From Gammaproteobacteria bacterium (GTDB lineage: Bacteria; Pseudomonadota; Gammaproteobacteria; HK1), in the NCBI GenBank assembly GCA_021773645.1, contig JAJFJU010000010.1, forward strand, positions 186,001 through 250,000: a stretch of DNA of 64,000 bases, written 5' to 3'. Shown here piece after piece: positions 1,215 through 45,311 of the stretch. How positions within the stretch are numbered: position 1 is the stretch's first letter; every line of letters starts with the position of its first letter. The notes under the pieces were generated by a model that saw only the letters and a program-made list of their open reading frames with translations, did not search any database and was not told where the DNA came from. A program made the translations under genes and the position numbers.

Positions 1215-2918
1215 CTAGTCGAAAATACTCATATCGACTTGAAGCCCGCGTTGCCGCAAGTCTTCATAGAACTCCGGCACCGTGCCGTTGGATAGGAATT
1301 GCCCCTTGATCCGGCCTTCGCCATCGAAACCCTCCTGCTGGTAATGGAAGATGTCCTGCATTTGGACGATGCCCCCCTCCACGCCGGTGATCTCGGTAAT
1401 ATTGACCACTCGTCGGCTGCCATCGGAGAAGCGTGTCTGCTGCACAATGAGGTCCACCGCGGAGGCTACCTGCTCGCGGATCGCTTGTACTGGAAGATCC
1501 ATGCCGGACATCATCACCATCACCTCAAGGCGTGAGATCAGGTCTCTTGGCGTGTTCGCATGGGCGGTGGTTAGAGAACCGTCGTGGCCGGTATTCATGG
1601 CCTGTAGCATATCCAAGGTCTCGCCACCGCGGCACTCGCCGACGACGATGCGGTCTGGGCGCATGCGCAGGCAGTTTTTCACCAGGTCGCGAATAAACAC
1701 GGCACCCTTGCCCTCGAGGTTGGGCGGCCGTGCTTCCAGGCTTACCAGGTGGGGCTGAGCCAGTTTCAACTCTGCCGCATCTTCTACGGTTACGATGCGT
1801 TCGGTGGAGGGAATGAAGTTGGAAAGCACATTGAGCAGCGTGGTTTTGCCGCTGCCGGTACCTCCCGAGATGATGATGTTCATGCGCTGTTCCACCGCCA
1901 TCTTGAGGAAGGTCGCCATGGCCTGATTCAACGCCCCAAAGCCAATCAGATCCTCATCGGTGAGCTTCTGCTTGGCAAACTTTCGGATAGTGAGGCAGGG
2001 GCCGCGCAGCGCCAGCGGTGGAATGATGGCATTCACCCGGGAGCCATCACGCAGGCGGGCATCGACCATCGGTGAGCTTTCATCGATGCGCCGCCCTAGT
2101 GGCGAGACGATGCGCTCGATAGCCGACATCACCGCGTCATCACTGGAAAATGTAATGTCGGAGAGGGTCAGGCGTCCGGCGCGCTCGACGTATATCTCGT
2201 CGAACTTATTGACCATGATTTCGGTAACTTCTTCATCGTCGATGAGCTCCTCCAGTGGACCAAGACCTACGGCTTCGTTGAGTACCTGTAGGGCCAGTTT
2301 CTGTCGGTTCACGTCGGCCGGTAGCTTGGCCTCCATGGCCTTGAGAATTCCCTTGATCATGCCTTCTACGTGGCTGCGCAGAGCATCTTCATCCATGCTG
2401 CTGATGTCGGTGCGACGTAGATCCATTGCCGTGAGCAATTCCTCGTGAACACGGTTGCGCCACTTGAATTTTTCATCGTGTTGCAGGCGGACGATGGTCT
2501 TGCTGTGTTCTTCAGAATCCTTTAGTACGGCATGGTGGGCTACACCAAACATGGTTTGTAGCGGGTCGAAGCCTTGTTCTTCCTCGTCTTCATCCTCATC
2601 GATATTCACATTTTCATCGTCTTTCACTGCCATGCCCGCAGTGATGCGATAGCTACCGATGGTGATGATATCCGAGGTGTGGAGGGGGCCGTAGCGCTCT
2701 ATTTCATCGCCGTTGACCAAAGTTCGGCCATTGCCACTCTGATCTTCAACAAATAGCCCCTCAGGGGTACGGTGAATTTCCGCGTGGTGTGGCGCGATTT
2801 TCCAGCCGCGTAGCTTTACCAGATTATCGCGGGCCTTGCCCAGCGAACACTCGTTGGCGGTACAGTGGATGCTCTGAAGCTGCTCACCCTTATCGCTATT
2901 GACGATGATATCAAACAT
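1215..2918 (-). CDS. cpaF: FHA-domain / CpaF (TadA) pilus assembly ATPase fusion
   Basis: A 567-residue secretion ATPase (CpaF/TadA family, GspE superfamily) powering Flp pilus assembly. It carries an extra N-terminal forkhead-associated domain at about residues 1-100, with the typical [18 protein letters not shown] strand-turn and [11 protein letters not shown] region. An acidic linker (DEDEDEEE) follows. The ATPase has Walker [10 protein letters not shown] near residues 351-359 and the [14 protein letters not shown] Walker B/Asp box near 417-430. FHA domains bind phosphothreonine, so the fusion may tie assembly to Ser/Thr phosphorylation; that is inference. It starts 9 bp after the secretin gene. 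The ATPase is unrelated to the tRNA deaminase TadA encoded at 30763. Confidence 0.93.
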
Positions 2919-2927
2919 GGGAAATAC

Positions 2928-4238
2928 CTAGTCGAGAATTTTCAGGCCGGGTTCTTTAACCGCTTTCCGGAACTCCTCCAGATTGGATTTATTCCGTTCC
3001 AGATAGGCTTTATTGAGCGGTGCACTGGCATCATGGATGGTGGGGGACACGAAGATCACCAACTCGCTTTTGTTATCGCGGTATTCCTTGGAACGGAATA
3101 GTGCACCTAGCACCGGCAGGTCCCCGAGGAATTTAAGCCGATCCACGGACTTGGAGGTCTGTTGGTCCACGAGTCCGGAAAGTACCAGCGTTTCGCCCGG
3201 GCGAACGCTGATATCGGCAGTGGTTTTACGGGTACGGAAGCCGGGGATGCCCTGTACCGCATTGGCCGGGTCAATGGTGCTGACCTCGGTGGAGACATTG
3301 GCTTGGATATTGTCGTTCTGGTCAATCTCCGGCTTGATGGTCAGGGTGATGCCGAATTCCTTGAACTCCACATTGCTTGATCCGAGGCTGTTGGTCACCG
3401 GTAAGGGTATCTCGCCTCCGGCCAGGAACTGGGCCTCACCACCACTGCGTGCCACCAGTCGGGGAGAGGCGAGGATCAGGGCGTTGCCCGAATTGATCGC
3501 AAAGTTGATACGTGAGCTGATCTCGGTAGCGATACCAAAGAAGCCCTGGGGGCTGCTTTCCCGTATCGGCAGGCCTGAGAATGAGGGGGTGGGCGGAGTG
3601 ACCCGAAAGAAGTCATTGTTGATCGCGTCAAAGGAGAAGGCCGCAGCCGGGCCGCTGATGGGGTTGTCCCAGCGGATACCCAGAGTTTCCAGATAGTTAC
3701 GGTTGAATTCAGTGATCTTGATATTCATCAATACCATTTTGTGATTGGGCAGATTCAGGGCTTCCTTGCGGGTCAGGTCCATGATTTCTGTGTAGACACC
3801 TTGCACGGTCTTGAGCACTGCCTGATAGCTTTTATCAATGCGTCCCGAGAGAATGATGCGTTCTCCGATCACACGTACCTGCAATCCGGAGATATCGGAA
3901 AGCAACTGACGGACTTCCATGGAACGTGCGTCGATACTTCCCAGGCGCTTGATTTCCTTAACGTTTGCGGTGTCTATCTGCACCGTCATATCGGTTTCCC
4001 GGCCGTTCTTGTACCAGATGTGCAGGGTGGTCACCCCTTCCTGTTCGGCAATCAGGATCAGCTGCCCGTTTTTCAGCAGTGAGGTACTGAGCATGCCACC
4101 TTTACCTACGGCAACCCGCTCCACCTTCCCAACCTTGAGGATCTTGATCTCACCCACATTGAGCTCGATCACTTGTCCCGCCATACACACGCTAAAGGCG
4201 AAGCTGAGGCATAGTCCCAGTACGAGTTTTCTCATCAT
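2928..4238 (-). CDS. cpaC: CpaC/RcpA outer-membrane secretin of the Flp/Tad pilus
   Basis: Outer-membrane secretin ring for the pilus. The start at 4238 is chosen because AAAGGA lies 6 nt upstream and the protein then begins MMRKLVLGLCLSFAFSVCMAG, a clean signal peptide. An in-frame ATG 28 codons upstream would put charged residues ahead of it. After processing come the pilus-secretin N domain (VIELNVGEIKILKVGKVERVAVG), a BON-like region (LSDISGLQVRVIGERIILSG) and the secretin domain with GGEIPLPV near residue 280 and LSGLVDQQ near 360. About 436 residues, normal for CpaC. It lies 25 bp after the small repeat protein and before the ATPase. Confidence 0.92.
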   Translation of the reverse strand: MMRKLVLGLCLSFAFSVCMAGQVIELNVGEIKILKVGKVERVAVGKGGMLSTSLLKNGQLILIAEQEGVTTLHIWYKNGRETDMTVQIDTANVKEIKRLGSIDARSMEVRQLLSDISGLQVRVIGERIILSGRIDKSYQAVLKTVQGVYTEIMDLTRKEALNLPNHKMVLMNIKITEFNRNYLETLGIRWDNPISGPAAAFSFDAINNDFFRVTPPTPSFSGLPIRESSPQGFFGIATEISSRINFAINSGNALILASPRLVARSGGEAQFLAGGEIPLPVTNSLGSSNVEFKEFGITLTIKPEIDQNDNIQANVSTEVSTIDPANAVQGIPGFRTRKTTADISVRPGETLVLSGLVDQQTSKSVDRLKFLGDLPVLGALFRSKEYRDNKSELVIFVSPTIHDASAPLNKAYLERNKSNLEEFRKAVKEPGLKILD

Positions 4239-39106: not shown

Positions 39107-40834
39107 TTATATGCTGTAGTCAAGATTTGCCTTCTTCCATTCCGACGGTATCTGGTAGCTATCCATCCAGGCCGGAAGATCGCCTGCTGGCATCGGGCGA
39201 GCAATACCGTATCCCTGGGCCAGTTCACAGCCCAGTTTTAGTAATAAAGTACCGTGCTCTATGGTTTCTACGCCTTCAGCCACCACCGTGCGCTGAAAGG
39301 CCTGGGTGAGGCCTAATATGCCTTTGGTGATAGCGAGATCCTCTGGATCACTGAGCAGGTCACGTATAAAACTCTGGTCTATTTTGAGCACCTGTGTGGG
39401 AAGGCGTCGCAGGTAGGTTAGCGACGAATAACCAGTGCCAAAGTCGTCAAGGGCAAATTGCACCCCCAGCTCAGCACATTGGGCAATGATTTTGCTGACG
39501 GCGTTTATATCTTGCAGCGCAGCCGTTTCCAGAATCTCCAGTTGCAGACGTGAAGCGGGAACATCCGGGAACTCGGCTAACAGGGCTTTCAGTGAGGGAA
39601 CAAAATCTACTCGTTGCAGTTGCAGTGCCGCAATGTTGACACTGACCTCCAGTTCAATTCCCTCCATTTTCCAGGCTCGCATCTGGGTGAGTGCCTGACG
39701 TAGCACCCAGTGGCCCAGGTCGAAGATTAACTCGCTGTGCTCAATGGCAGGCAGGAAGGCATCGGGTGTCAGCAGCCCCTTTTCAGGGTGTTGCCATCGG
39801 ATGAGGGCTTCCACCCCCGCCATTGCTCCCGAGGCCATATTGACCTTGGGCTGGTAGTACAGGCGTAGCTGCTCCCTTGCCAGCGCGATCTGAATTTCAC
39901 GCTGTATGGAGTTGATGGTTACTGCCTTTTGTTCTTCACTCGGGTCAAAAAAGGCGTAGCGGTTCTTGCCGCTCTGTTTGGCGGCATACATAGCCTGGTC
40001 GGCATGGCGCAGCAGGGTGTCGGCTTCCTCGGAGTCCGGTGGATGCGTAGCGATACCGATACTGGCGAAGAGGGTGAGCGTTGTGTCCTGCAGGGCATAA
40101 GGCTCGGCAATGGTCTTCAGAACCCGAGCCAGCAGTTGTTCCAGCTCGGAAGTGCTTCGGATATCGAGCATTAACAAGACAAACTCATCGCCACCCAGGC
40201 GCGCCACCGTATCACCGGTACGCAAGTTTTGTTGGAGTCGCCGCGCAACCTCGATCAGGATTTGGTCACCAGCCTGATGGCCATGGTTATCATTGACGGG
40301 TTTGAAGCCATCCAGATCGAGGTAACAGACGGCTATCTGCTTTCCCTGGCGTTTTGCGTGGCTTAAGGCCTGCTGCATACGGTCTTGTAACAGCAGGCGA
40401 TTGGGCAATCCGGTGAGAGCATCGTTATAGGCGATTTCCTTGAGTGCCATTGCGTGTTCTTTGAGATAGCTAATATCCGAGAAGGCCGCCACATAATGTT
40501 GTAGATTTCCGTCCCGGTCGGATACCACGTCAATACTTAGTTGTTCGGTGTAAAACTCGCCTGATTTCTTGCGATTCTGGATTTCACCCTGCCAGTGACC
40601 GAATTCATTTATTGCCTTCCACATGGTGGTATAGAAACTCCGGGGATGATTGCCGGAACTGAACATGCGGGGATCTTTGCCTAACACCTCTTCCCGGGAG
40701 TAGCCGCTCAGTCTAAGGCTCGCCGGGTTGGCATCAATAATGTGGTTATACATATCGGTAACAACAATGCCTTCCTGTGAGTGCTTGAAGACGCTGGCCG
40801 CGAGTCGTTCAAATCGTTGCGCACGTTTGCGCAC
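39107..40834 (-). CDS. PAS-GGDEF-EAL protein, downstream part of an amber-split gene
   Basis: A 575-residue segment with PAS (about residues 8-130, SQEGIVVTDMYNHIIDANPASLRLSGYSREEV), GGDEF (RLGGDEFVLLML, with an RTGD inhibitory-site motif five residues before) and EAL (EALIRWQHPEKGLL, DDFGTGYSSLTYLRRLP, AEGVET). Both catalytic domains look intact, so it could make or break cyclic di-GMP. It is in the same frame as the membrane sensor upstream, separated by a single TAG (40841-40843) and two codons. The GTG at 40834 has no well-placed Shine-Dalgarno. It is probably the C-terminal part of one 834-codon gene. It is a close paralogue of the gene at 42747. Confidence 0.85.
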   Translation of the reverse strand: MRKRAQRFERLAASVFKHSQEGIVVTDMYNHIIDANPASLRLSGYSREEVLGKDPRMFSSGNHPRSFYTTMWKAINEFGHWQGEIQNRKKSGEFYTEQLSIDVVSDRDGNLQHYVAAFSDISYLKEHAMALKEIAYNDALTGLPNRLLLQDRMQQALSHAKRQGKQIAVCYLDLDGFKPVNDNHGHQAGDQILIEVARRLQQNLRTGDTVARLGGDEFVLLMLDIRSTSELEQLLARVLKTIAEPYALQDTTLTLFASIGIATHPPDSEEADTLLRHADQAMYAAKQSGKNRYAFFDPSEEQKAVTINSIQREIQIALAREQLRLYYQPKVNMASGAMAGVEALIRWQHPEKGLLTPDAFLPAIEHSELIFDLGHWVLRQALTQMRAWKMEGIELEVSVNIAALQLQRVDFVPSLKALLAEFPDVPASRLQLEILETAALQDINAVSKIIAQCAELGVQFALDDFGTGYSSLTYLRRLPTQVLKIDQSFIRDLLSDPEDLAITKGILGLTQAFQRTVVAEGVETIEHGTLLLKLGCELAQGYGIARPMPAGDLPAWMDSYQIPSEWKKANLDYSI

Positions 40835-40840
40835 CTTGAT

Positions 40841-40843
40841 CTA
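40841..40843 (-). other. In-frame amber codon splitting a sensor-GGDEF-EAL gene
   Basis: Reading the minus strand, EALIQ is followed by TAG, then Ile-Lys and the GTG-encoded start of the PAS-GGDEF-EAL protein, all in one frame. Removing this codon joins HAMP to PAS with a coiled coil across the joint (REALIQ-IKVRKRAQRFERLAAS). It could be a nonsense mutation, a sequencing error or a readthrough site. Confidence 0.85.
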
Positions 40844-41611
40844 TTGAATAAGTGCCTCCCTGCTGACCATGGTCTCCCGCAGCTTTCTGGCAACCCTGTT
40901 AAATGCGCTTGCTACGTCTCCAATTTCATCATCGCGTTCTTTCTTAATGCGATAACTCATGTCTATTCCAAATGCGTGGATATCTGCGCCCAGCGCCCGA
41001 ATAGGCAAGATAATGCGCACAACGATCATGATCCAAAGGCTCACGAGGAGCCATATCAGCAATAGCACAAGACCCGTGAGCAACCATTGAGCATCGCTGG
41101 TCGCCACATTATGGGCCTTCTTGTTATGCGAAATTAATATCGAAGTTTGGGAAACCATGGCTTGTGTGGCAGCCAGCAATCCACTGATCAGCCGTTTATG
41201 ATGGAAGGTCATGGACTTGTCTTCACTCCCGTTTTTGAGCGCCAAAGGGTGGTTCTGGAGGTGCTCAAATAACTTCAGAGACCTGGTGTGATGGCCGCGC
41301 AGGCGCTCTATAGTCAGCTTTGTGCTCTTGCTGAGGTATTGTGAATCCTGTAGCAACCTTCCCAGGGTTTCGTGCCTTTGAAGCCATTGGACCCTTGCTC
41401 GTTCCTCGCGGTAAAGCCCATATTCTCCGGCCAGGATTGAGAGTTGATAGGCTGCATCGGTAACCAAGCGGGCGAATTGCTCACGTTTGATGACCTCGTT
41501 GTGGTCCTGGTTGGTACTGTACAGGCTGTTTACGATTATCAGAGTGACGACAATCGAAGCCACCATTCCAGCTATGGTGAGGGATAGTATTTTAAATCCG
41601 TGTTTAGCCAT
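40841..41611 (-). CDS. Membrane sensor with HAMP domain, upstream part of an amber-split gene
   Basis: A 256-residue segment: membrane helix about residues 9-30 (SLTIAGMVASIVVTLIIVNSLY), a helical periplasmic domain of about 145 residues, a second membrane helix about 177-202 (WLLTGLVLLLIWLLVSLWIMIVV) and a HAMP domain (IILPIRALGADI, DEIGDVASAFNRVARKLRE) to the end. A HAMP domain ending at a stop without an output domain is unusual; the PAS-GGDEF-EAL output follows in the same frame after one TAG. The start is ATG 41611, preceded by TTG 41614. The substrate-binding protein gene ends 33 bp upstream. Confidence 0.82.
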   Translation of the reverse strand: MAKHGFKILSLTIAGMVASIVVTLIIVNSLYSTNQDHNEVIKREQFARLVTDAAYQLSILAGEYGLYREERARVQWLQRHETLGRLLQDSQYLSKSTKLTIERLRGHHTRSLKLFEHLQNHPLALKNGSEDKSMTFHHKRLISGLLAATQAMVSQTSILISHNKKAHNVATSDAQWLLTGLVLLLIWLLVSLWIMIVVRIILPIRALGADIHAFGIDMSYRIKKERDDEIGDVASAFNRVARKLRETMVSREALIQ

Positions 41612-41644
41612 CAATGGCCCCCGATCCGGTATGGCATTCAGACT

Positions 41645-42679
41645 CTAGTGAAACACCGTTAGTGCTTCTGGATGGATCCGCTCCAGGGTATCCAGATAAA
41701 GAAATTCCAAGTAGTTGGGAGATTTACTGCTGGCAACTAACTTTAGTTCAAGAGCCCAGCGTGCCTGCTCTTCCAGGGTGGACAGAAGCCACTGATGAAG
41801 GCTGATACCAAAGTCGAAATCTTTCCATATTGCCCTTATGAAATTAATATCTTTGTTAATGCGCCGGGAGACGATGAGCTGAGATTCCTCTGGATGAGTA
41901 TTGATGAATGCCGTTGCCTGTATAAGCGACCGTACAAACTTGTCCATAATCTCTGGATTCTTGTTTGCATATTCCCGCAGCACAATCGAATTGAAGGTTT
42001 CTGTATAAACATGATCGTGGGAAAGCTCAACTGCATTTTCAGCAAGTGCCTTTTTAGTCAGGTAGGCGAGGGGCTCCCATACGACGATGGCATCGACATC
42101 ACCGTTGGCCAATGCGGATGGGGAATCCTCTGGATTAACATGCACTACCTCGACCATAGAGGGGTCAACACCAGCCATCGCCAGGGTTTCATCTAGAAAG
42201 AACTGAGCTGACGCACCCGTTACAGTGCCAATCCGACGGCCCATAAAATGATCTAATTTTCGGATGCCTGTATCCACACGGGTGAGGATCTTGATGTCGT
42301 TATTAGAGGTGACGAAGGTATTCACAATGGCGAAATCGGAGCGCTTGAAGCTATTAAACATGACCACGACTTCTGAGGACGTGGCGACGTCGACTTCACC
42401 TGCAAACAGGGCTTTGATTGCACGGTTGCCCCCGATGACATCTTTTAGAGAGACATCAAGGCCGTTTTTGGCGAAATATCCTTGATGTTTGGCGATGATG
42501 ATTGGGGATGACAGCGGCGTCAGGGACATGGCTACCGTTAGTGGTTTTAACTCCTGCGCTTGTACCGGGAGGGGTATGAAAACTGCGCACAAACCGATGC
42601 TGATGGTGACAACTGTGACGGCCAGTACGGTGGCGTGTGCCAATAGCCTAGTGAACAGTTTATGGGCTAACAATTTCAT
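41645..42679 (-). CDS. NMT1/THI5-like periplasmic substrate-binding protein
   Basis: A 344-residue protein with a long signal peptide (to about residue 42, FIPLPVQAQ) and the ABC-type aliphatic sulfonate/nitrate/thiamine-precursor binding fold. Typical segments are LTVAMSLTPLSSPIIIAKHQGYFAKNGLDVSL, VIGGNRAIKALFAGEVDVATSSEVVVM, GRRIGTVTGASAQFFLDETL and ANGDVDAIVVWEPLAYL. There is no permease or ATPase gene nearby. It lies 33 bp before the HAMP sensor gene, so it probably presents a ligand to that sensor rather than to a transporter. The ligand cannot be told. Confidence 0.85.
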   Translation of the reverse strand: MKLLAHKLFTRLLAHATVLAVTVVTISIGLCAVFIPLPVQAQELKPLTVAMSLTPLSSPIIIAKHQGYFAKNGLDVSLKDVIGGNRAIKALFAGEVDVATSSEVVVMFNSFKRSDFAIVNTFVTSNNDIKILTRVDTGIRKLDHFMGRRIGTVTGASAQFFLDETLAMAGVDPSMVEVVHVNPEDSPSALANGDVDAIVVWEPLAYLTKKALAENAVELSHDHVYTETFNSIVLREYANKNPEIMDKFVRSLIQATAFINTHPEESQLIVSRRINKDINFIRAIWKDFDFGISLHQWLLSTLEEQARWALELKLVASSKSPNYLEFLYLDTLERIHPEALTVFH

Positions 42680-42746: not shown

Positions 42747-45311
42747 TTATATCATGTAGTCGGGGACCGTCTTTTTCCATTCGGATGGTATTTGGTAGCT
42801 TTCCAGCCAAGCGGCCAGATCGTGAGCTGGCATCGGGCGGGCGATGCCGTATCCCTGAGTCAGTTCACAGCCTAATTCCAACAGTAGGGTACCGTGCTCT
42901 ACGGTTTCTACGCCTTCGGCTACGGGGGTGCGATTAAAGGCTTTGGCCAAGCCTAATATGCCTTTGGTAATGGCCAGATCCTCAGCGTCGTCGAGCAGGT
43001 TGCGGATGAAGCTACGATCGATTTTGAGCACTTGTGCGGGGAGGCGCTTTAGATAGGTTAGTGAGGAATATCCGGTGCCAAAGTCATCGAGGGAAAATTG
43101 CACGCCCAGTGCAGCACATTCGGTAATGGTTTTGCTGACATGATCGATATCGTGCAAGGCAGCTGTTTCCAGAATTTCCAACTCAAGGCGTGAGGAGGAA
43201 ATATCGGGAAACTCATCCAACAGGGATTTCAGTGAGGATATGAAATTTGTTTGTTGAAGTTGTAGCGCGGCGATATTGACGCTGACATCCAGTTCAATAC
43301 CCTCTGCCTTCCAAGTGCGTATTTGAGCTAGTGCCTGGCGTAGCACCCAGCGGCCTAAATCAATGATCAGCTCGCTGTGCTCAATGGTTGGCAGAAAGCT
43401 ATCCGGTGCCAGCAGCCCCTTTTTTGGATGTTGCCAACGCACTAGGGCTTCTACGCCTACAACCAGCCCCGAGCGCATGTTGACCTTGGGTTGGTAGTAC
43501 AGGCGTAGTTGCTGTTCGTCCAGTGCAGTCTCAATTTCACGCTGTATGGAGCTGTTGGCCATCGACCTTTGTTCTTCACTGGAGTCGAAAAAGTGGTAAC
43601 GGTTTTTACCCGCTCGTTTGGCGGTATACATGGCTTGATCTGCGTGGCGTAGCAGGGTATCTGCCTCGGTATGGTCTTTGGGATAAATGGCAATGCCGAT
43701 GGTGGCAGAAAGGGTCATCTTGGTGCCGTTAAGGGGATAGGGTTTGGCTATGCACTCCAGTATTCGGTCCAGCAATTGCTCCAGCTCAGCTATTTCCTGG
43801 AAATCGGGTATTAGCAGAATAAATTCATCGCCACCCAGTCGGGCTACCGTGTCGCTATTTCGCAGCTTGTGCTGAAGTCGACGGGCGACCTCTATCAGGA
43901 TCTGATCTCCCGTCTGATGACCATGGATATCGTTGATGGGTTTGAAGCTGTCCAGATCGAGATAACAGATGGCCACCAAGGTGTTATGACGTTTTGCCTG
44001 GATCAGCGCCTGCGCCATCCGATCTTGCAACAAGCGTCGGTTGGGCAGTCCGGTTAGGCTGTCATTAAAGGCGATGCGCTCGAGCTCAAAGGCGTGTTCC
44101 TTAAGATAGGTGATATCTGAAAAAACACCGACATAGTGTTGCAGCTTTCCGCTTTGATCATGTACGGCATCGACACTGAGTCGTTCTGTATAAAGCTCTC
44201 CGGACTTCTTGCGATTCTGAATTTCACCCTGCCAGTGCCCCTGTTCAGCGAGTGTTTTCCACATTGAGGTATAAAATTTCGGGGGCTGATTACCGGAACT
44301 AAACAGTCTGGGATTTTCCCCACGCATTTCTTCCCGGCTATATCCGGTTAGCTTAAAGCTGGCGGGGTTCGCGTCTATGATGCGATTACGGGCATCGGTG
44401 ACAATAATCCCATCCTGAGAATGGACGAAAACACTGGCTGCAAGCCGCTGGCTTTCCTCTGCCTGTTTGCGATCAGTGATATCGAGCATGAAACCAACTA
44501 ATTCGTATGGCTTTCCATGCTTATCTTTCAACAGCGTGACTATGTCGCGAATCCAGACAATTTTCCCGCTGGCGGATATACATCGGTATTCGAAATCATG
44601 ATCCTCGCCGGCCTCCGTTGATAGGCTGCAATAGGTTATGGAAGGGTGGCGATCATCGGGGTGGATACTGTTTGACCACGATTCTAAATCTGTCCAGGTA
44701 TCAGTTGTAAAGCCGAGCATTGCCTCTATCTGGGCACCCACAAAGGTAAATCGGCCCTCCTTCAGATTGTATTTCCACGGCAGAATCTGTGCGGCTTCCA
44801 CCAGTGATCTGAATTTATGTTCACTCTCAATTAGCTTTGTTTCCATCACTCGGCGCTGGCTGATATCTGTATGGGTGCCGATCATCTGCAGTGGTTCGTT
44901 ATCTTTAGTCCACGAAATTATTTTTCCGCGGTCCAGTATCCATTTATAGGAGCCGTCCTTGCATAGCACGCGATGTTCGTTTTCGTAGTAGGGGGTTTCA
45001 CCGGCGAAATGCCGATTCACATCGACAAGGGTTTGTTCCTTGTCATCTGGATGAATGCGTTTATCCCATTCATCCAGGCTGTTGCCAATTTCAGCATCGG
45101 CGTAGCCGAGCATCTCTTTCCAGCGTGTGGAAAAGAAAACCTCATTGGTGGCCATATTCCAATCCCATACGCCATCTCGATTACCCTCCAAGGCCAGTAG
45201 CCAGCGCTGGTCACTTTCTCGCAATTGTCGGCGTGCTTGCCATTGCAGATAGATGGGGAGCCCAAGGAGGAGAAGGGAAAGGGCTATGGCGCTGGTTATC
45301 ATCCAGTTCAT
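42747..45311 (-). CDS. Membrane-anchored PAS(3)-GGDEF-EAL protein
   Basis: An 854-residue signalling protein. It has one N-terminal helix (residues 4-22), PAS/PAC domains at about 35-155 (WDWNMATNEVFFSTRWKEMLGY), 165-285 (FTFVGAQIEAMLGFTTDTW) and 290-405 (SQDGIIVTDARNRIIDANPAS). GGDEF follows (RLGGDEFILLI with RNSD inhibitory site), then EAL (EALVRWQHPKKGLL, DDFGTGYSSLTYLKRLP, AEGVET). Both active sites look complete. Its last about 560 residues match the gene at 39107 closely, down to the end SYQIPSEWKK. It is 67 bp upstream of the substrate-binding gene on the same strand. Confidence 0.93.
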   Translation of the reverse strand: MNWMITSAIALSLLLLGLPIYLQWQARRQLRESDQRWLLALEGNRDGVWDWNMATNEVFFSTRWKEMLGYADAEIGNSLDEWDKRIHPDDKEQTLVDVNRHFAGETPYYENEHRVLCKDGSYKWILDRGKIISWTKDNEPLQMIGTHTDISQRRVMETKLIESEHKFRSLVEAAQILPWKYNLKEGRFTFVGAQIEAMLGFTTDTWTDLESWSNSIHPDDRHPSITYCSLSTEAGEDHDFEYRCISASGKIVWIRDIVTLLKDKHGKPYELVGFMLDITDRKQAEESQRLAASVFVHSQDGIIVTDARNRIIDANPASFKLTGYSREEMRGENPRLFSSGNQPPKFYTSMWKTLAEQGHWQGEIQNRKKSGELYTERLSVDAVHDQSGKLQHYVGVFSDITYLKEHAFELERIAFNDSLTGLPNRRLLQDRMAQALIQAKRHNTLVAICYLDLDSFKPINDIHGHQTGDQILIEVARRLQHKLRNSDTVARLGGDEFILLIPDFQEIAELEQLLDRILECIAKPYPLNGTKMTLSATIGIAIYPKDHTEADTLLRHADQAMYTAKRAGKNRYHFFDSSEEQRSMANSSIQREIETALDEQQLRLYYQPKVNMRSGLVVGVEALVRWQHPKKGLLAPDSFLPTIEHSELIIDLGRWVLRQALAQIRTWKAEGIELDVSVNIAALQLQQTNFISSLKSLLDEFPDISSSRLELEILETAALHDIDHVSKTITECAALGVQFSLDDFGTGYSSLTYLKRLPAQVLKIDRSFIRNLLDDAEDLAITKGILGLAKAFNRTPVAEGVETVEHGTLLLELGCELTQGYGIARPMPAHDLAAWLESYQIPSEWKKTVPDYMI

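Follow-up and report, generated by a model that had tools for sequence, protein, structure and literature searches.

Stop codons and frameshifts in genes of c-di-GMP turnover are a known route to altered set points of biofilm formation and motility. A natural in-frame TAG is known from the GGDEF-EAL gene yciR of E. coli (strain B-11870), the rest of which is intact, and work on this allele showed that it changes the gene's effect (PMC5635171). The stimulation of transmembrane receptors by periplasmic binding proteins is likewise an established theme that includes c-di-GMP enzymes (PMC9602780), its model case being NspS-MbaA of Vibrio cholerae, also present in Sinorhizobium meliloti, in which the binding-protein gene lies directly upstream of that for a transmembrane GGDEF-EAL receptor (PMC8079147). 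HAMP and PAS domains are expected to be connected by an unbroken signalling helix (the S-helix concept, PMC1592074).

The locus described here, in a window of 64,000 nucleotides of gammaproteobacterial DNA, bears comparison with both systems. The yciR stop removes the EAL domain, whereas the stop in the window falls between HAMP and PAS and severs the whole output from the sensor. As in NspS-MbaA a binding-protein gene lies directly upstream, but its product is NMT1/SsuA-like and not a polyamine-binding PotD-like protein, a PAS domain precedes GGDEF and the TAG interrupts the receptor; the likeness is one of gene arrangement. By analogy, the window system would work like NspS-MbaA without being a member of that type. 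The features concerned are:

39107-40834, minus strand: PAS-GGDEF-EAL half, 575 aa, with intact catalytic motifs and under purifying selection
40832-40834, minus strand: GTG, candidate restart codon 6 nt past the stop, without a Shine-Dalgarno sequence at normal spacing
40841-40843, minus strand: in-frame amber TAG, read directly from the sequence, within the HAMP-PAS signalling helix
40855-40860, minus strand: Shine-Dalgarno-like GGGAGG, lying 20 nt ahead of the GTG
40841-41611, minus strand: sensor half, 256 aa, recognised by its ORF, a HAMP match below cut-off, a predicted helical domain and profile relatives
41645-42679, minus strand: NMT1/SsuA-TauA-like periplasmic solute-binding protein, the proposed ligand-presenting partner, forming a conserved pair with the sensor
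42747-45311, minus strand: paralogous PAS-PAS-PAS-GGDEF-EAL gene, intact, upstream of the binding-protein gene

The sensor and PAS-GGDEF-EAL ORFs are in the identical frame, and the TAG is the sole stop in 835 codons. It is followed by ATC AAG GTG, the GTG opening the second ORF, and the ORF coordinates thus bear out an earlier sequence-only reading of the locus as a 256-aa sensor ending in HAMP and a same-frame PAS-GGDEF-EAL protein with a TAG and two codons between them. That reading named base 40842, which is the middle base of the stop codon spanning 40841-40843. The sensor half starts at ATG 41611 (alternative TTG 41614, minus strand) and comprises two transmembrane helices, a helical periplasmic domain and a HAMP domain before terminating at the amber codon. 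Pfam models recover PAS, GGDEF and EAL from the split gene, and of HAMP the C-terminal part only, slightly below cut-off. In the enzyme half an RTGD of the RxxD inhibitory-site pattern ahead of GGDEF, and the GGDEF and EAL motifs themselves, are intact by eye, as had been claimed, and solved GGDEF-EAL proteins align with it end to end. The locus therefore has the PAS, GGDEF and EAL domains of a HAMP-PAS-GGDEF-EAL receptor, with intact catalytic motifs, but its sensor, HAMP and output are kept out of a single open frame by the TAG (40843-40841).

That the two halves once formed one gene is indicated by the junction, by the relatives of the sensor and by the match of the enzyme half to a G002 protein that starts at the junction (below). 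The linker across the stop, SREALIQ*IKVRKRAQRFERL, aligns without gaps, and beyond what chance would give, to HAMP-to-PAS linkers of two genomes of the same genus, G001 and G002, an example of their intact linkers aligning across the TAG being SRDELNQEINARKKAEKGLRL. The TAG column is occupied by Glu in the three genus proteins listed, encoded on G001:C38, G002:C5 and G002:C3, the last a kinase (L109:6767-9202), and likewise in the binding-protein-linked kinase of G002:C3 in a separate alignment. An AlphaFold2 model of the read-through form, built with ten sequences and of only moderate confidence at the helix (block means roughly 50 to 90), shows one helix from residue 229 to residue 277, with the stop at residue 257. 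If the stop is ignored, alignments and predicted helix thus agree on a continuous, in-register HAMP-PAS helix. A profile search with the sensor recovered full-length relatives in six genomes besides this one; there are seven of them, and in each the sensor ORF goes on to encode a histidine kinase, so that none terminates after HAMP. Because the linker aligns gap-free, with Glu at the stop, and all seven sensor relatives are fused to an output, the fused form was almost certainly the ancestor, and the proposal that an amber codon cut one gene inside a continuous helix holds up well. No relative with an uninterrupted fusion of this sensor to GGDEF-EAL was found in the searched genomes, which numbered one per species. 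In a structure search the sensor-to-PAS model drew mainly PAS/LOV matches and gave no information on the sensor.

In the window the binding-protein gene lies 33 nt upstream of the sensor ORF, no ABC permease or ATPase gene adjoins it among the surrounding ORFs, and its product resembles the SsuA/TauA group below those models' cut-offs. Each of the seven sensor relatives, which occur in G002 (contig C3), G117, G123 (twice), G147, G199 and G253, is likewise preceded, 2-35 nt upstream, by an NMT1-type gene homologous to 41645-42679. Four of the eight pairs, the window's own included, went into the profile behind this comparison, so only the other four are independent confirmations. The two-gene unit, in which an NMT1-type binding-protein gene precedes one for a sensor-HAMP protein, is conserved at L109, L175, L181, L217, L218, L219 and L220 and at 40841-42679 in the window. 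The kinase pairs share with the window homologous binding proteins and sensors in the same gene order, but differ in that their output is HisKA/HATPase (in some with REC or Hpt) in a single uninterrupted ORF; among the pairs found, GGDEF-EAL is the output only in the window. Since the pair is conserved seven times and the binding-protein/receptor theme is known, with NspS-MbaA as its model, in the working form a ligand-loaded binding protein would contact the helical sensor, HAMP and helix would transmit the signal, and PAS-GGDEF-EAL would shift the balance between synthesis and breakdown of c-di-GMP. These surroundings may prove more useful than the stop itself, in that a binding-protein/sensor pair usually wired to kinases is here wired to c-di-GMP, a rewiring that shows how such modules change outputs.

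The enzyme half is 79% identical to the last 579 residues of a G002 REC-PAS-GGDEF-EAL protein (C24:133340-136591) encoded at the same chromosomal place, beside lysC and alaS, and this similarity begins at the sensor/enzyme junction; the G002 protein differs in its N-terminus, which consists of a receiver and additional PAS domains and lacks a membrane sensor. The PAS-GGDEF-EAL part of the paralogue at 42747-45311 is 72% identical to the enzyme half of the interrupted gene. This paralogue starts with a single transmembrane helix, whereas its G002 counterpart (C24:125908-128700) has a periplasmic SBP_bac_3 domain in front; the copy in the window has apparently lost its sensing domain. In the corresponding region of G002:C24 (L106, 13748-16898) an unrelated SBP_bac_8 binding protein and HAMP-kinase pair lies between two PAS-GGDEF-EAL genes. 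Because the pair at the G002 place is a different one, the locus appears to exchange sensing modules, and the comparison suggests a hotspot for such swapping. It is possible that a kinase-plus-receiver circuit has here collapsed into a single fused protein.

We consider it probable that a recent natural nonsense mutation uncoupled the sensor from the c-di-GMP enzyme in a once-fused gene. The locus would have held one gene for a transmembrane c-di-GMP enzyme, consisting of a periplasmic helical sensor, HAMP, signalling helix, PAS, GGDEF and EAL, to which the solute-binding protein encoded upstream presented ligand as NspS does to MbaA. This gene would have arisen when a binding-protein/sensor pair, normally kinase-fused, became linked in frame to a PAS-GGDEF-EAL unit already at the locus, and would then have been split when one recent nonsense substitution hit the signalling helix. 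Its present products would be an output-less sensor, perhaps a little soluble, unregulated PAS-GGDEF-EAL protein through reinitiation at GTG 40834, and a trace of full-length protein from background readthrough. Recent loss, one of three options first put forward from the sequence, is favoured as the most economical. The locus would then illustrate cleanly how a single codon, placed exactly at the signalling helix, can detach a sensor from its enzyme when both are otherwise intact.

Selection was measured on the enzyme half only, the sensor half having no close relative. For the enzyme-half branch a codon model over six sequences puts omega at 0.179 (approximate 95% range 0.125-0.265), the background value being 0.16, and omega = 1 is rejected for it (likelihood-ratio statistic 46); both alternative topologies score more than 60 log units below the assumed one. 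The enzyme half is thus under purifying selection, as the sequence-only reading had supposed of both parts, and each half has the appearance of a genuine gene. By simple interpolation the neutral share of the branch is at most about 13%, and the codon model, in which a recent lesion would leave no trace, detects no relaxation of selection on this half. Nor is any lesion present besides the TAG. Given purifying selection and no other lesion, either the stop is recent or the enzyme half is still made; it may indeed still be made and useful, there being no visible decay past the stop.

A sequencing error is less likely than a recent mutation. More broadly, the stop could be an artefact of sequencing, assembly or strain mixture, the organism itself having a sense codon and a normal full-length gene, which we regard as unlikely. 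In its favour, only a single codon of 835 is affected while selection is intact, the genome is a draft in 28 contigs, and the frameshift beside a five-C run in a paralogue (below) may be a homopolymer error. However, the TAG is a substitution, not a homopolymer indel, and the surrounding genes common to G002 have intact reading frames of near-equal length.

It is doubtful that the split is itself functional, with ribosomes restarting at GTG 40834 so that the cell gains a membrane sensor plus an independent soluble PAS-GGDEF-EAL enzyme, both of them useful and perhaps still associating. Strong selection has been kept on the enzyme half and the gap to the GTG is short enough for reinitiation, as termination-reinitiation coupling works over very short gaps (PMC10666635), so that weak restart across the 6 nt is plausible. 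Against this, the GTG is, as first noted, without a properly placed ribosome binding site: no Shine-Dalgarno pairing precedes it at spacings 4-13, and the GGGAGG further upstream is probably incidental, because the same bases encode part of the conserved S-R-E linker motif. The GTG also lies inside a small predicted hairpin that begins within a few bases of the TAG. Moreover, an output-less HAMP occurs in none of the full-length sensor relatives, and the linker sequence before and after the stop is still compatible with a continuous helix. A promoter scan, a weak test, found no internal promoter before the second ORF.

Programmed amber readthrough or recoding, which would set a controlled amount of full-length receptor beside the short one, is very improbable. 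In its favour, reading frame, helix register and selection all carry through the stop, the small hairpin starts a few bases past the TAG, and stop-codon readthrough does occur in E. coli, in the order TGA > TAG > TAA (PMC11126739). But the check for suppressor-tRNA or pyrrolysine decoding was negative: none of the 46 tRNA genes in the genome has a CUA anticodon, no match to PylS exceeds the cut-off (matches below it occur also in 13 of 14 control genomes) and RF1 is present. An RNA recoding signal was rejected as well, since there is no Rfam element at the junction and the RNA structure around the stop is not significant (fold z -0.91). Conservation of the TAG is seen in no relative, no close relative of the joint having been found and the linker relatives carrying Glu. 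We give equally little credence to the amber codon as a maintained switch, in which translation would mostly stop, or restart at the GTG, to yield a decoupled sensor and free enzyme, and a regulated readthrough fraction would yield the ligand-controlled full-length receptor.

An origin without fusion, in which a sensor gene that already had a stop landed beside an enzyme gene, would suit the separate origins of sensor family and enzyme and the onset of G002 similarity at the junction, but is extremely improbable given the same frame, the exact helix register, a two-codon gap fitting the linker length and the fact that no full-length sensor relative ends here.

In the same genome another PAS-GGDEF-EAL gene (G000:C4:189500-195000, L114, about 1310-3100, minus strand) has a single-base frameshift, with the break near 1940, at the start of the EAL domain beside a five-C run, the remaining EAL being intact in another frame. 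Three further candidates for stop-bearing paralogues, G000:C4:417994, G000:C19:112123 and G002:C4:222610, were rejected, as the match merely overruns the natural gene end. Of the listed paralogues whose match contains a stop, only that at G000:C4:191419 is truly interrupted, by frameshift. Broken c-di-GMP genes are common, and partial EAL domains are present in both G001 and G002.
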